Shown: positions 2,579 through 7,736 of the stretch, piece after piece
How the letters are laid out: each line of letters starts with the position of its first letter
Numbering within the stretch: the first letter of the stretch is position 1
Source of the DNA: Erysipelatoclostridium sp. An173
GTDB lineage: Bacteria > Bacillota_I > Bacilli_A > Erysipelotrichales > Coprobacillaceae
Reading direction: 5' to 3'
DNA: 64,000 bases
Assembly (NCBI RefSeq): GCF_002160495.1
Contig: NZ_NFKR01000001.1
Location: 1-64,000 of the forward strand
The notes under the pieces: generated by a model
The model's input: only the letters and a program-made list of their open reading frames with translations
Databases searched by the model: none
What the model was told of the DNA's origin: nothing
Program-made: the position numbers and the translations under genes

Positions 2579-3328
2579 ATGATAGTTTATATTAATGGAA
2601 ATGATAATCGCTGTAAGTATTTAGCTAAGTTAATAGAAGCAGATGGTCATCGCGTTGAAACTAATATTAATATGTTAGATGTATGTCACATTCTGTATTT
2701 AGGACGTGATGGTGCTGGATTTGAACAAGTTGATTTTAAGCCCAATGCTATTGTAATAACTTTATTAAAAAATCAACGATTATCTTATTTAAGTAAATTA
2801 AAAGGTTTTAATTATGAATATTTATATCATGATGATGATTTTGTTTGGGAAAATACTTTTATTTGTGATGAAGCATTAATAGCTTATATGATTATAGATA
2901 ATAAAATTTCGTTAGCGAATGCTAAAATATTGATTTTAGGCTATGGTCATTGTGGTAGAGATTTAGCTAATAAATTAGAAGCTTTTAAAGCTAAGATCAC
3001 TATTGCTAATCACAATAACCGTTACTTTGATGAAGTAATAAAAAAAGGATATTCATATCATTCATTAAATCATTTGAACCTAGATAAATATGATTATGTT
3101 ATTAATACTATTCCAAAGCAGATTTTAACTAGACAAATATTAAGTACCAAAAAAACAGGTTGCAAGATCTATGATATTGCTTCTAAACCATATGGTATGA
3201 ACATTCAAGATCGTGATGAAAATTATCATCTATTAAAACAATTACCAACAAAATATGCTTATCAAAGCAGTGCTTTAGTTTTATATCAGGCTATTAAGAA
3301 AGTTGTTGATCGTTATGCTGGAAAATAA
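2579..3328 (+). CDS. dpaA: Dipicolinate synthase subunit A (SpoVFA)
   Basis: The protein forms, with DpaB, the enzyme that oxidises dihydrodipicolinate or its precursor to dipicolinic acid in the mother cell; the spore core then takes it up with calcium. Its 249 residues are shorter than the ~297 of B. subtilis, mostly in the N-terminal half. A Rossmann nucleotide-binding turn is visible at about residues 117-125 (ILILGYGHCGRD), followed by a conserved C-terminal region with KIYDIASKPYG. AGAGGTGG precedes the ATG. It is the first gene of the operon, behind a sigma-K-like promoter, and its end overlaps dpaB. Confidence 0.88.
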   Translation: MIVYINGNDNRCKYLAKLIEADGHRVETNINMLDVCHILYLGRDGAGFEQVDFKPNAIVITLLKNQRLSYLSKLKGFNYEYLYHDDDFVWENTFICDEALIAYMIIDNKISLANAKILILGYGHCGRDLANKLEAFKAKITIANHNNRYFDEVIKKGYSYHSLNHLNLDKYDYVINTIPKQILTRQILSTKKTGCKIYDIASKPYGMNIQDRDENYHLLKQLPTKYAYQSSALVLYQAIKKVVDRYAGK

Positions 3329-3905
3329 AAAAATTGGAATTGGATTAACTGGATCTTTTTGCTCGTTAGAAAAAACATTATCGGTAATAAAAGATTTAAG
3401 TAAGTTAAAGTGTGATTTATATATTTTTGCAAGTGAAAAAATATTAACATGTGATACTCGCTTTGATAAAGCTGATGAATTAATTGAAGAATTAGAAAAA
3501 TTATCCAAACGTAAAATAATTGATAATGTTGTTGATAGTGAAATTTTCGGTCCTAAAATTCCTTTGGATATCATGTTAGTAATGCCATGTAGTGGTAATA
3601 CTTTAGCTAAACTGACATATGGTTTAAATGATAACGCTGTAACTATGGCTTGTAAATCAACACTACGAAATGAACATAATGTTGTACTAGCAATAGCAAC
3701 TAATGATGCTTTAAGCAACTCTGGAAAAAATATAATGCAACTATTAAATACAAAGCATTTCTATTTAGTACCAATGTATCAAGATGATTATATAAAAAAA
3801 CCAAACAGTATGCTTTTTGATGAAAATCTTGTTATTCCTACATTAATAAATGCATTAAATAACAAACAGATTCAACCGGTATTAGAAGGGAATAAAGATG
3901 ATTAA
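3315..3905 (+). CDS. dpaB: Dipicolinate synthase subunit B (SpoVFB), flavoprotein-like
   Basis: This is the second subunit of dipicolinate synthase and belongs to the flavoprotein (HFCD-like) fold. The 196 residues closely match B. subtilis DpaB in length and motif order: IGIGLTGSFC at the start, then FGPKIPLDIMLVMPCSGNTLAKL and a C-terminal KKPNSM. The ATG at 3315, inside the end of dpaA, is chosen over a TTG at 3303 because the homologous proteins begin just before the GLTG motif. Overlap with both neighbours implies translational coupling. It is probably made only late in sporulation, in the mother cell. Confidence 0.9.
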   Translation: MLENKKIGIGLTGSFCSLEKTLSVIKDLSKLKCDLYIFASEKILTCDTRFDKADELIEELEKLSKRKIIDNVVDSEIFGPKIPLDIMLVMPCSGNTLAKLTYGLNDNAVTMACKSTLRNEHNVVLAIATNDALSNSGKNIMQLLNTKHFYLVPMYQDDYIKKPNSMLFDENLVIPTLINALNNKQIQPVLEGNKDD

Positions 3906-4956
3906 AGTTTTAAAATTTGGTGGAACATGTTTACAAAATCAAGAATCTATTGATAAGGTCATCGAAATAATTAAAAAATATGCTGATGATAAATTATTAA
4001 TTGTTACTAGTGCAATGGGTCGTTATCCTGACCCATATGCAACTGATACATTAAAATCGTTAGTTAGCCAGGTAAACAGTGATGAATATAGTCGTTTGCT
4101 TAGTTGTGGCGAGATCATTAGTAGTATAATTTTGTCTAATGAACTAAAAAAACAGCATTTAAAAGCTATTTCCGTATCATCAAGACAAATTGAATTAAAA
4201 ACTCATAAAAATAAATTAGTAAATGTTAACCAAAACAGGATTAAAAAATATTTTGAAACGTATGATATTATTATAGTTCCTGGTTTTCAAGGAATTGATA
4301 ATCGTGGTAATTTAAAGATTTTAGAAAAAGGTGATAGTGATTATACAGCTGCTTATTTAGCGCGGCGGTTAAACCTTGATGAAGTTTATATTTTTAGTGA
4401 TGTTTGTGGAATATATACTGGAGATCCTAAATATATTTATGATTCTAAATTAATTTGTCATGTTGGCTATAAACAGGCTTTAGATTTAGCTAAACATAAA
4501 GCAAGGATTATTTGTTATAAAGCTTTAAATGAAGGATATAAAAAAATTGGTTTTAAAATTAAACTTCGTTCTTATTTAAATGATCAAATTGGAACTTTGA
4601 TTAATCATGATGATACTAGTATTAGGACAATGTCAATTGACTTTGATTATTGTTTGATTCATTTTGAAAAAACAATTAATTCTAATGATCTTAAATATTT
4701 AAATGATTGTTATGGTAAAAATTATTTTGTTGCAACAGAAAATTTAAAAAAATTAGAAACACCTTTTATTAAAATCAAAAACTATGCCAAAGTTCATTTT
4801 GTTGGCTGTGGTCTTGATAAAGATGAAATATATCGTAATTTTCTTGATAAATTTGCAATCATATCTCAAAATGAAACTTCTAGTTATTATGTTGAAGAAA
4901 AAAACTGGCACCAGGATTTAAACTTACTGCATGATATAATTGTTAGGAGTGATTAA
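3898..4956 (+). CDS. dapG: Divergent aspartokinase of the DapG type
   Basis: DapG phosphorylates aspartate, the first step toward diaminopimelate and dipicolinate. Here the N-terminal KFGGTC, the DapG-typical SAMGRYPDPYATD (about residues 39-51), GFQG and FSDVCGIYTGDP are kept. The substrate loop usually reading GRGGSD is instead EKGDSD, and the later ELA..GAKV segment is changed. The 352 residues fall short of the ~404 in B. subtilis, the regulatory ACT part being reduced, although KVHFVGCGL in the last domain is still recognisable. Activity is therefore doubtful. It overlaps dpaB by eight bases; the usual asd gene between them is absent. Confidence 0.8.
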   Translation: MIKVLKFGGTCLQNQESIDKVIEIIKKYADDKLLIVTSAMGRYPDPYATDTLKSLVSQVNSDEYSRLLSCGEIISSIILSNELKKQHLKAISVSSRQIELKTHKNKLVNVNQNRIKKYFETYDIIIVPGFQGIDNRGNLKILEKGDSDYTAAYLARRLNLDEVYIFSDVCGIYTGDPKYIYDSKLICHVGYKQALDLAKHKARIICYKALNEGYKKIGFKIKLRSYLNDQIGTLINHDDTSIRTMSIDFDYCLIHFEKTINSNDLKYLNDCYGKNYFVATENLKKLETPFIKIKNYAKVHFVGCGLDKDEIYRNFLDKFAIISQNETSSYYVEEKNWHQDLNLLHDIIVRSD

Positions 4957-4958
4957 AA

Positions 4959-5771
4959 ATAAAAATATTTATTAATTTACTAACCCCATTTAAAGCTGAT
5001 GATACTATTGACTATGATAAAACTAAAGAATTGATTGATCGTTTAATTGAACAGGGGTGTAATAATTTTGTTATTGGTGGTAATACTGGAGAAGGAGCAA
5101 CACTAAGTTTTTTAGAATTGAAACATTTTTTACGTTATTTTTGTTTTCATTATCCACAAATAAATATTTATACAGTTATCAATGATTTATCAACCAAAAA
5201 AGTAATTCGAAAAATCAATAACCTAAGTGATTTACAAAATCTAAATGGTTTTATTATTAAAATTCCAGAAGTTTCTGGTTTAAAACAACAAGAAATATTT
5301 AAACATTTTAATTTTATCGCTTTAACAACTAATAAAAAAATTATTATTAAAGATTGTCAAAAGGTTAAAATTAATGAACAGACTATTTCTAAATTAGTCC
5401 AGGAACACAAAAATATTGCTGGAATAATATGTAAATATCATGTAATAGACCATATTGACAATTTTGATGTTTTTTATGATGAAACTTTATTAAAAGATTT
5501 TCATCACCAGATAAAATCAGGAATTATTAGTAGTTTAGCTAACTTGAATTATCAAAATATAAAAAAATTAATTACTTCTTCAAATAAAGTAGATCACGAT
5601 TATTTAATGTTATTATTAAAATATTTTTATCAGGAAAATATTACTAGTACCTTAAAATATGCTCTTAGTCAAAGTGAAAATATTGAATGTTTTACACGAC
5701 TTCCATTATCAAATATCAGTATAGAATTAAAAAATAATATCGATAGATTATTAAAAATGACAATTAATTGA
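4959..5771 (+). CDS. dapA: Degenerate dihydrodipicolinate synthase (DapA-like) with ATA start
   Basis: DapA normally condenses pyruvate with aspartate semialdehyde. This 270-residue copy aligns over its whole length: INLLTPF at the start, GGNTGEGATLS in place of the usual TTGES loop, and a C-terminal RLPLSNIS. The catalytic PYYN tyrosine segment is replaced by IPEVSG, the YNVPGRT loop is lost, and the Schiff-base lysine region reads GIICKYH. No ATG, GTG or TTG occurs in frame before 5031, which lies inside the conserved N-terminus. The ATA at 4959 sits nine bases after AGGAG and yields the expected start. It is probably inactive or repurposed, and poorly translated unless ATA is used. Confidence 0.65.
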   Translation: MKIFINLLTPFKADDTIDYDKTKELIDRLIEQGCNNFVIGGNTGEGATLSFLELKHFLRYFCFHYPQINIYTVINDLSTKKVIRKINNLSDLQNLNGFIIKIPEVSGLKQQEIFKHFNFIALTTNKKIIIKDCQKVKINEQTISKLVQEHKNIAGIICKYHVIDHIDNFDVFYDETLLKDFHHQIKSGIISSLANLNYQNIKKLITSSNKVDHDYLMLLLKYFYQENITSTLKYALSQSENIECFTRLPLSNISIELKNNIDRLLKMTIN

Positions 5772-5960: not shown

Positions 5961-7655
5961 ATGAGTAAAGAAAGTGTAAAAATTATTCCACTTGGTGGCC
6001 AAGCGGAAATGGGTAAAAGTATGTATTGCATTGAAGTAAATGAAAAAATCTTTATTATCGATGCTGGATTTCGTTTCCCAGAAGTTAGTAAATTAGGTGT
6101 TGATATAATAATTCCTAGTTTTGATTTTTTAAAAGAAAATGAAGATCGTGTAGTTGCAGTAATTATTACTCACGGTCATGATGATGTTATGGCAGCCTTG
6201 CCATATTTATTAGAAACAATCGATGTGCCAATTTATGCACCAGCTTTAACAGCTGATTTGATTGAACAAATGTTGAAACGGTATAAAAAACAAAATAATT
6301 TAAAATTAAATTACAATATTACAAGAGTAAAGCGCAATGATTCTATTATCATTAGTGATATTCCAGTTGAATTTTTCCCAGTAACTCATTCTATTCCTGG
6401 AAGTGTAGGAGTAGCTATTTGGAGTGAAAATGGTTATATTGTTTATAGCGGTGAATTCATTATTGATTTTGGTGCTCCTGAAGGATTTAGATGCGACATT
6501 CAGAAAATGATGGAAATTGGAAAAAAAGGTGTTTTAGCATTACTTTGCGAATCATCTTATTCTAAAAATTCCGGATATACTTCACCAAAGCATAAATTAA
6601 CTGACAAATTAGATCATATTTTTGAAGATAGTGAAGGGCGAATCATAATTACAAGCTATGCCCAAAATATTTTTAGAACTAAAGAAATTGTTGAATTGAC
6701 CAAAAAATATGGTCGTAAAATAGTTTTCTATGGTCGCGATAAATACGATAGCACTAATAGTATTGTTCGTATCGGACAACAGTTAAAAAAAGCAGTTATT
6801 GAAATTCCTAAAGAAATTATTGCTTTTTCAACTGATATTGGTAAGAAAAATGTGGATGATAATTTAGTTGTATTATTAAGTGGAACCCCACAAAGAATTT
6901 ATCATGATATTTTAGATATAATTGATGGTGGCGATGAATCATTAAAATTAAATGAAAATGATACATTTATTGTTGCTTCACCAGTTATACCAGGGACAGA
7001 AAAAATCGCTAATAAAGCAATTAATGAGTTATATAAAACTGATGCTAATATTCATGTTTTGAAAAATAAAGAATTGTGTTCAATGCATGCTTCACAAGAA
7101 GATATTAAAGTTATCATTCAAATTTTCAAACCTAAATATTTTATTCCAATTAAAGGGGAATATCAGCACTTTATTTCTAATTTAGATATTGCTCGAAGTA
7201 TGGAAATAGCTTTTGAAAATGTGGGAATTATTGATAATGGGGAAATATTGACATTTATCGATGGAAAATTACAAGATTACCGTGATACTATTGAAGTTGA
7301 AGATGTTATGATTGATGGTATCGGGGTTGGTGATGTTGGTGATAAAGTAATTGATGATCGCATCCAATTATCTAATGATGGCGTTGTGGTTATTGGCGTT
7401 ACGATTGATAGTCAATCTCGTGATATTATTGCTAATACTGATGTCCAGACACGTGGATTTGTTTATTTAAGAGATTCAGAATACATAATTAAAGGAATTA
7501 TTGAAATTTCTGAAAAATGTGTTGCTGAAATGAAAAACAATCCTAAATTAGAAGCGATTGAAGTTCGTCAGACAATTAAGGATAAAGTTAATAAATATAT
7601 TTCTAAAGAAACCGGAAAAAAACCAGTTGTTTTACCAATTATAATTGAAGTTTAA
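5961..7655 (+). CDS. rnjB: Ribonuclease J2-type protein with an incomplete active site
   Basis: This 564-residue metallo-beta-lactamase/beta-CASP protein belongs to the RNase J family, which matures and degrades RNA in the degradosome. The metal motif HxHxDH reads HGHDDV (residues 71-76), and the later TGDF is SGEF, so two zinc ligands are altered, as in streptococcal and staphylococcal J2 proteins. It likely acts as a partner or scaffold for a catalytic J1 encoded elsewhere. The ATG at 5961, directly after GGAGGT (5951-5956), is preferred over an earlier start at 5931. Its place after dapA and before spoIIIE matches B. subtilis rnjB (ymfA). A terminator follows at 7654. Confidence 0.9.
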   Translation: MSKESVKIIPLGGQAEMGKSMYCIEVNEKIFIIDAGFRFPEVSKLGVDIIIPSFDFLKENEDRVVAVIITHGHDDVMAALPYLLETIDVPIYAPALTADLIEQMLKRYKKQNNLKLNYNITRVKRNDSIIISDIPVEFFPVTHSIPGSVGVAIWSENGYIVYSGEFIIDFGAPEGFRCDIQKMMEIGKKGVLALLCESSYSKNSGYTSPKHKLTDKLDHIFEDSEGRIIITSYAQNIFRTKEIVELTKKYGRKIVFYGRDKYDSTNSIVRIGQQLKKAVIEIPKEIIAFSTDIGKKNVDDNLVVLLSGTPQRIYHDILDIIDGGDESLKLNENDTFIVASPVIPGTEKIANKAINELYKTDANIHVLKNKELCSMHASQEDIKVIIQIFKPKYFIPIKGEYQHFISNLDIARSMEIAFENVGIIDNGEILTFIDGKLQDYRDTIEVEDVMIDGIGVGDVGDKVIDDRIQLSNDGVVVIGVTIDSQSRDIIANTDVQTRGFVYLRDSEYIIKGIIEISEKCVAEMKNNPKLEAIEVRQTIKDKVNKYISKETGKKPVVLPIIIEV

Positions 7656-7680
7656 GCAAGTTTATTCTTGCTTTTTCTTT
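7654..7680 (+). terminator. Rho-independent terminator after rnjB
   Basis: The stem AAGCAAG/CTTGCTT with a six-base loop is followed by a long T-rich tract. It separates rnjB from spoIIIE, whose -10-like TATAAT lies at 7701-7706. Confidence 0.75.
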
Positions 7681-7736
7681 TTCATAGTGGTTGCCTGTGT
7701 TATAATGATGAAGTTAAGTTGGGAGTGAAAAGAGTT

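Follow-up and report, generated by a model that had tools for sequence, protein, structure and literature searches.

The dipicolinate operon described here raises the question of why copies of two lysine-pathway genes, dapG and dapA, are kept as long open reading frames after their catalytic signatures have changed. The original prediction, made on the window (the whole stretch of 64,000 nucleotides that was analyzed), offered two answers, namely that both genes had decayed together or that they now do something other than feed the pathway. Genus-wide changes, purifying selection on both genes and normal copies elsewhere in the genome favor the second answer over decay. The operon has a known counterpart in Bacillus subtilis, spoVFA-spoVFB-asd-dapG-dapA (spoVFA and spoVFB being dpaA and dpaB), with which it shares the order dpaA-dpaB-dapG-dapA, the RNase J gene and ftsK/spoIIIE region that come next, and a promoter of mother-cell type. 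The diversion of a lysine-pathway intermediate to dipicolinate (DPA) in the mother cell is usually seen as a matter of enzyme supply, and DPA is given as 5–15% of spore dry weight (PMC5629000).

Layout of the dipicolinate operon

The window genome belongs to the genus Thomasclavelia, its near relatives being T. cocleata DSM 1551 and T. saccharogumia DSM 17460; the search covered nine Thomasclavelia genomes, 34 further genomes of the family and, in a second step, 315 of the order. On the + strand of the window, dpaA (2579–3328), dpaB (3315–3905), a dapG-like gene (3898–4956; 352 aa) and a dapA-like gene (4959–5771; 270 aa) precede an RNase J gene and an ftsK/spoIIIE-like gene. The start of dpaB is ATG 3315, and dapG overlaps the dpaB stop codon, the two genes sharing 8 bases. 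The expectation of an intact dpaA-dpaB pair was borne out for dipicolinate synthase subunit B, which is 80–86% identical within the genus and scores 226 bits against NF006161 (cut-off 156), but not for subunit A, whose N-terminal domain is short and diverged: DpaA models align with the 249-aa protein of the window no earlier than about residue 53 (profile position 90), NF006162 covering residues 54–245 only (E=5e-27). DpaA is only 249 aa long across Thomasclavelia, with the N-terminal domain short and diverged and the Rossmann part kept. As predicted, asd is gone from this operon; a copy is located elsewhere in the same genome (L130:6309-7349).

The sigma-K/sigma-E consensus is CATANNNTA. In all eight Thomasclavelia genomes examined, AACAAACT-N12-14-CATATTTTA sits 24–26 nt upstream of dpaA, which is how a mother-cell promoter would be expected to look; in the window, CATATTTTA is a candidate sigma-K/sigma-E-type -10 element (2551–2563, + strand), preceded by AACAAACT and separated from dpaA by a very short leader. 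Together, the DpaB score above the NF006161 cut-off and the conserved CATATTTTA element point to a sporulation dipicolinate operon. Control of dpaAB by sigma-K has been reported in B. subtilis and C. difficile (PMC3789822).

Catalytic residues of the operon DapA and DapG

The operon DapA of the window is a full-length homologue of 4-hydroxy-tetrahydrodipicolinate synthase (DapA/DHDPS). Its Pfam DHDPS match (PF00701, E=3e-15), like the AA_kinase match of the operon DapG (PF00696, E=2e-36), implies that the homology is not due to chance. Its AF2 model (pLDDT 69, with low confidence in the C-terminal third) is a predicted TIM barrel with DHDPS structures as best matches (2ehh, TM ~0.77). Unlike DHDPS, however, it scores only 88 bits against TIGR00674 (cut-off 206) and lacks Lys161, Tyr133, Tyr107, Arg138 and Thr44. 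The roles of these residues, the triad Tyr133, Thr44 and Tyr107 together with Arg138 and Lys161, have been described (PMC5109050), and Y106/Y107 of DHDPS also interlock the tight dimer (PMC11201819). At the positions aligned with E. coli T44/T45/Y107/Y133/R138/K161 the window protein reads N/T/V/K/V/I, and its YNVPGRT loop is shorter by 3 aa, so that the predicted changes to the catalytic tyrosine (Tyr133 to K), the YNVPGRT loop and the lysine region (Lys161 to I) are all found in the alignment.

The same loss extends to five species. All five Thomasclavelia operon DapAs lack the five HTPA-synthase-defining residues, and the position of the Schiff-base Lys161 is Ile in four of them; the alignment of the fifth (G041) is ambiguous there, GLI again fitting Ile. 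One broken strain, with intact copies in its relatives, is hence ruled out. Outside the genus, the 44 operon DapAs of the same order (12 from the same family and 32 from its sister family) keep K161, Y133, Y107 and R138 without exception, and 43 of them keep Thr44. In a maximum-likelihood tree, the five Thomasclavelia sequences form one clade (100/100) beside the same-family operon DapAs, which argues for a single loss in the genus stem followed by vertical descent, although unusual letters in the Thomasclavelia rows and one long branch make the exact placing of this clade less sure than its monophyly. This grouping with the family operon copies rules out a recent transfer or duplication of the housekeeping dapA, and the operon DapAs are only ~22% identical to the other DapA of the genome. 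The G041 protein falls below the Pfam cut-off in a genome search and above it when scanned alone. From the residues lost, we infer that catalysis by the operon DapA is, with near certainty, absent. As a separate observation, nine operon DapAs of the family (L044-L052; G001, G002, G004, G007, G009, G028, G029, G033 and G034) carry PYYIKP, YN(I/D)P(S/R)RC and GMKQ changes adjoining intact catalytic residues, which could reflect a change in kinetics or in sensitivity to lysine.

The operon DapG shares its amino-acid kinase domain and most ATP-site motifs with the monofunctional aspartokinases DapG/LysC (NF006068, TIGR00656), and its model (pLDDT 77.5) matches aspartokinases, best 5yei. As anticipated, the nucleotide-binding signatures KFGGT, SAMGR, GE, PGFQG and SD..IYTGDP are present, and the equivalent of Glu119 is retained. 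It differs from DapG/LysC in a shortened regulatory part and in the loop GRGGSD, which reads EKGDSD (residues 143–148; 4324–4341, + strand), both of which had been foreseen. The C-terminus extends 112 aa past residue 240, where Pfam gave no ACT match and the model has a shortened alpha/beta region, and the protein scores 191 bits against NF006068/TIGR00656 (cut-off 474). In E. coli LysC, Arg198 forms a salt bridge with the alpha-carboxylate of aspartate (PMC5481828). This aspartate-binding Arg is replaced in all eight Thomasclavelia DapGs, which read EKGDSD in six species and QQGDSD and DPGDSD in one each, leaving GDSD invariant with Lys, Gln or Pro at the former Arg position and an additional Asp beside it. 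Operon DapGs of two other genera of the family still have ERGGSD and GRGGSD, indicating that the GDSD change is specific to Thomasclavelia. The ATP-site motifs are kept in seven of the eight and partly lost in G041 (KFGET, SAMK). Aspartokinase activity has likely been lost from the operon DapG, a loss that is less certain than that of DapA activity.

Selection, gene loss and the start of dapA

Comparison across relatives revealed purifying selection on both genes. Between the closely related G035 and G040 (dS ~0.9–1.2), pairwise dN/dS is 0.04 for dpaB, 0.06 for dpaA, 0.07 for dapG and 0.16 for dapA. A codon model in which five genes had their branch lengths in common, adopted because free lengths per partition came out saturated, gave omega values of 0.025 for rnj, 0.034 for dpaB, 0.075 for dpaA, 0.084 and 0.077 for the kinase and C-terminal parts of dapG, and 0.133, 0.278 and 0.168 for the successive thirds of dapA. 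The constraint on dapG equals that on dpaA, and dapA is the least constrained and fastest gene of the operon set. Branch-wise omega lies at 0.05–0.10 for dapG and 0.11–0.26 for dapA, and omega = 1 was rejected on every terminal branch, including that of the window (2dL of 447–718 for dapG and 175–250 for dapA). Under simulated neutral change, 1.7% of frames were stop-free at 0.1 substitutions/site and none at 0.25. Simple decay is rejected on this evidence, with dN/dS at ~0.08 for dapG and 0.13–0.28 for dapA. Thirteen positions are fixed in the putatively dead DapAs and differ from the active majority, 11 of them in residues 1–95 and none in residues 96–186, and the middle third, which held the active site, is the least constrained (omega 0.28). 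In these five sequences, a small sample, the pattern is that of a protein retained for its surface and not for its active site.

Gene content varies within the genus. A dapG gene is found in eight of the nine Thomasclavelia species and dapA in five, never without dapG; dapA has been deleted in G037, G038 and G039, and both genes are gone from G042. A tblastn search of the species without dapA found no dapA remnants. The joint decay envisaged in the original prediction does not agree with this distribution, since dapG is constrained like dpaA and kept in nearly all species, whereas dapA is faster and gone from four. The task of the operon dapA and dapG is dispensable in some lineages. One canonical DapA copy is present in each of the nine species, and the normal second copies looked for in the window genome were found, dapA in dapA-dapB-lysA and a canonical DapG-type aspartokinase in hom-AK-asd; with canonical dapA, aspartokinase and asd elsewhere, the pathway is independent of the operon copies. 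The first ORF of the housekeeping lysine operon, directly before dapA-dapB-lysA (L129:3540-4112), resembles the ACT part of an aspartokinase and has no kinase domain.

The dapA frame of the window opens at 4953, and ATA 4959 lies 9 nt after an AGGAG ribosome-binding site (4945–4949, + strand), recognized from the sequence and from a comparison of five junctions. The first ATG, GTG or TTG is codon 25 in the window and codon 49 in G041. Because codons 2–24 of the window gene, upstream of that codon, are under purifying selection (omega 0.10), TTG 5031 is ruled out as too late a start, and ATA 4959 is the most likely one. Both genes had been described as full-length open frames; this stands for dapG at 3898–4956, but the TTG start listed for dapA does not, the frame being longer. 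The gene starts with ATG in G035 and G040, behind a weak AGAAG/CGAAG site. The window and G036 have ATA at this place and G041 has ATT, in each case 8–9 nt downstream of AGGAG (L040, L043). Non-AUG initiation is the simplest account of these starts and would keep DapA scarce, and the pairing of ATA/ATT with a stronger Shine-Dalgarno sequence than in the ATG species suggests compensation toward an expression level that is set low. A DapG-DapA fusion through a -1 frameshift is unlikely, given that GATTAA is the sole overlap of the two frames in the window and tRNA-Asp would have to re-pair on TGA.

These data bear on a slower form of decay, in which the operon copies would be redundant beside the housekeeping DapA and survive as relics kept open by polarity or translational coupling with their neighbors. 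The deletion of dapA without remnant in at least three lineages (G037/G038, G039 and G042), its rate of change and its ATA/ATT starts in three of five species are what such a process would leave. On the other hand, omega is far under 1 on all terminal branches for both genes, dapG matches dpaA in constraint, and the pair with ATG starts, G035/G040, still shows 0.16 for dapA and 0.07 for dapG at dS ~0.9–1. Furthermore, DapA has acquired newly fixed residues, and its clean deletion elsewhere implies that dapA is not required for the translation of its neighbors. Slow decay is therefore considered unlikely.

Retention of a putative pseudoenzyme pair

The mark of a pseudoenzyme, loss of catalytic residues under purifying selection, is clear in DapA and probable in DapG. 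The pair has probably been kept in this DPA operon of sigma-K type for a non-catalytic role, as subunits that bind or regulate. In the Thomasclavelia ancestor, a mother-cell dpaA-dpaB-dapG-dapA operon would have lost DapA catalysis and probably the aspartokinase function of DapG, with the DPA precursor now supplied by the housekeeping aspartokinase, Asd and DapA. The operon proteins would stay folded as pseudoenzymes, co-transcribed and translationally coupled with the DPA synthase, and would most likely act in the mother cell by binding, with DpaA/DpaB, the housekeeping enzymes or both being tethered or regulated. Candidate partners are the co-translated DpaA/DpaB and the housekeeping DapA or aspartokinase. 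The idea put forward in the original prediction, that the proteins hold the dipicolinate synthase complex together, is a hypothesis that would be one version of such a role. Since DapG is better kept and occurs without DapA, it is likelier to be the core, or main non-catalytic subunit, and DapA an accessory add-on, possibly retained above all for the half-barrel at its N-terminus. A binding or regulatory role is a best guess, and several observations weigh against it: neither gene is essential to the operon, with dapA deleted in four of nine species and dapG in one; the low constraint on dapA and the ATA/ATT starts of three of its five copies also fit slow loss; and the mostly kept ATP site of DapG, with Lys for Arg in six of eight species, would allow residual or altered kinase activity. 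More tentatively, and with considerable doubt, the two proteins might form a sporulation-specific complex that captures the DPA synthase and/or the housekeeping DapA and channels HTPA to DPA in the mother cell, pseudo-DapA being dosed low by its ATA/ATT starts.

Conversion to new enzymes, with DapG phosphorylating another substrate and DapA acting as a non-Schiff-base lyase or as a binding protein for a new ligand, appears improbable: the GDSD consensus, invariant in eight of eight DapGs, resembles the GDND motif of glutamate 5-kinase, the ATP-site motifs are mostly intact and DapA has new fixed residues, but the barrel segment of its former active site is its least conserved (omega 0.28), the position before GDSD holds K, Q or P, and further losses (KFGET, SAMK) are seen in G041. 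It is likewise doubtful that only DapA is dead and that DapG is a still working aspartokinase with relaxed feedback control feeding DPA synthesis, for although the Glu119 equivalent, ATP site and overall fold are kept, selection is strong and Arg-to-Lys is conservative (six of eight), the aspartate-binding Arg (E. coli Arg198, PMC5481828) has given way to Gln in one species and to Pro in another, and all eight carry an added Asp next to its position.

This operon differs from the spoVF operon of B. subtilis in the absence of asd, in a DapA predicted to be catalytically dead and in a DapG without its aspartate-binding Arg. The operon itself is of a known kind, and the retention of the seemingly dead pair is new; in the open-access literature searched (subscription journals being outside its scope), neither described DHDPS or aspartokinase pseudoenzymes nor reports on the Thomasclavelia dipicolinate operon were found. 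Like pseudoenzymes in general, the pair has lost catalytic residues, is under purifying selection and has an active paralogue in the genome. A genus with an apparently dead yet preserved operon DapA is a natural setting in which to ask whether these proteins contribute structurally or by regulation to DPA synthesis, and its species with both genes, dapG only or neither provide a ready comparison set. Such genes are liable to be labeled dapA and aspartokinase in annotation.

Minor features of the locus

In 'Clostridiales bacterium VE202-01' (L057:3669-4427 and 6058-7698), dpaA lies in two separate frames and ~1.4 kb of unrelated DNA separates dapG from the RNase J gene, which is not so in the near-identical G037. 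Upstream of dpaA in the window, a fast-evolving ORF of 105 aa (2197–2514), for which Pfam and NCBIfam searches gave no match, keeps its position across the genus at 32–56% identity. Between this ORF and dpaA lies an inverted repeat (2511–2538; AAGTTGAC...GTCAACTT), the arms of which appear to covary in relatives (e.g., AAGGTTG...CAACCTT).
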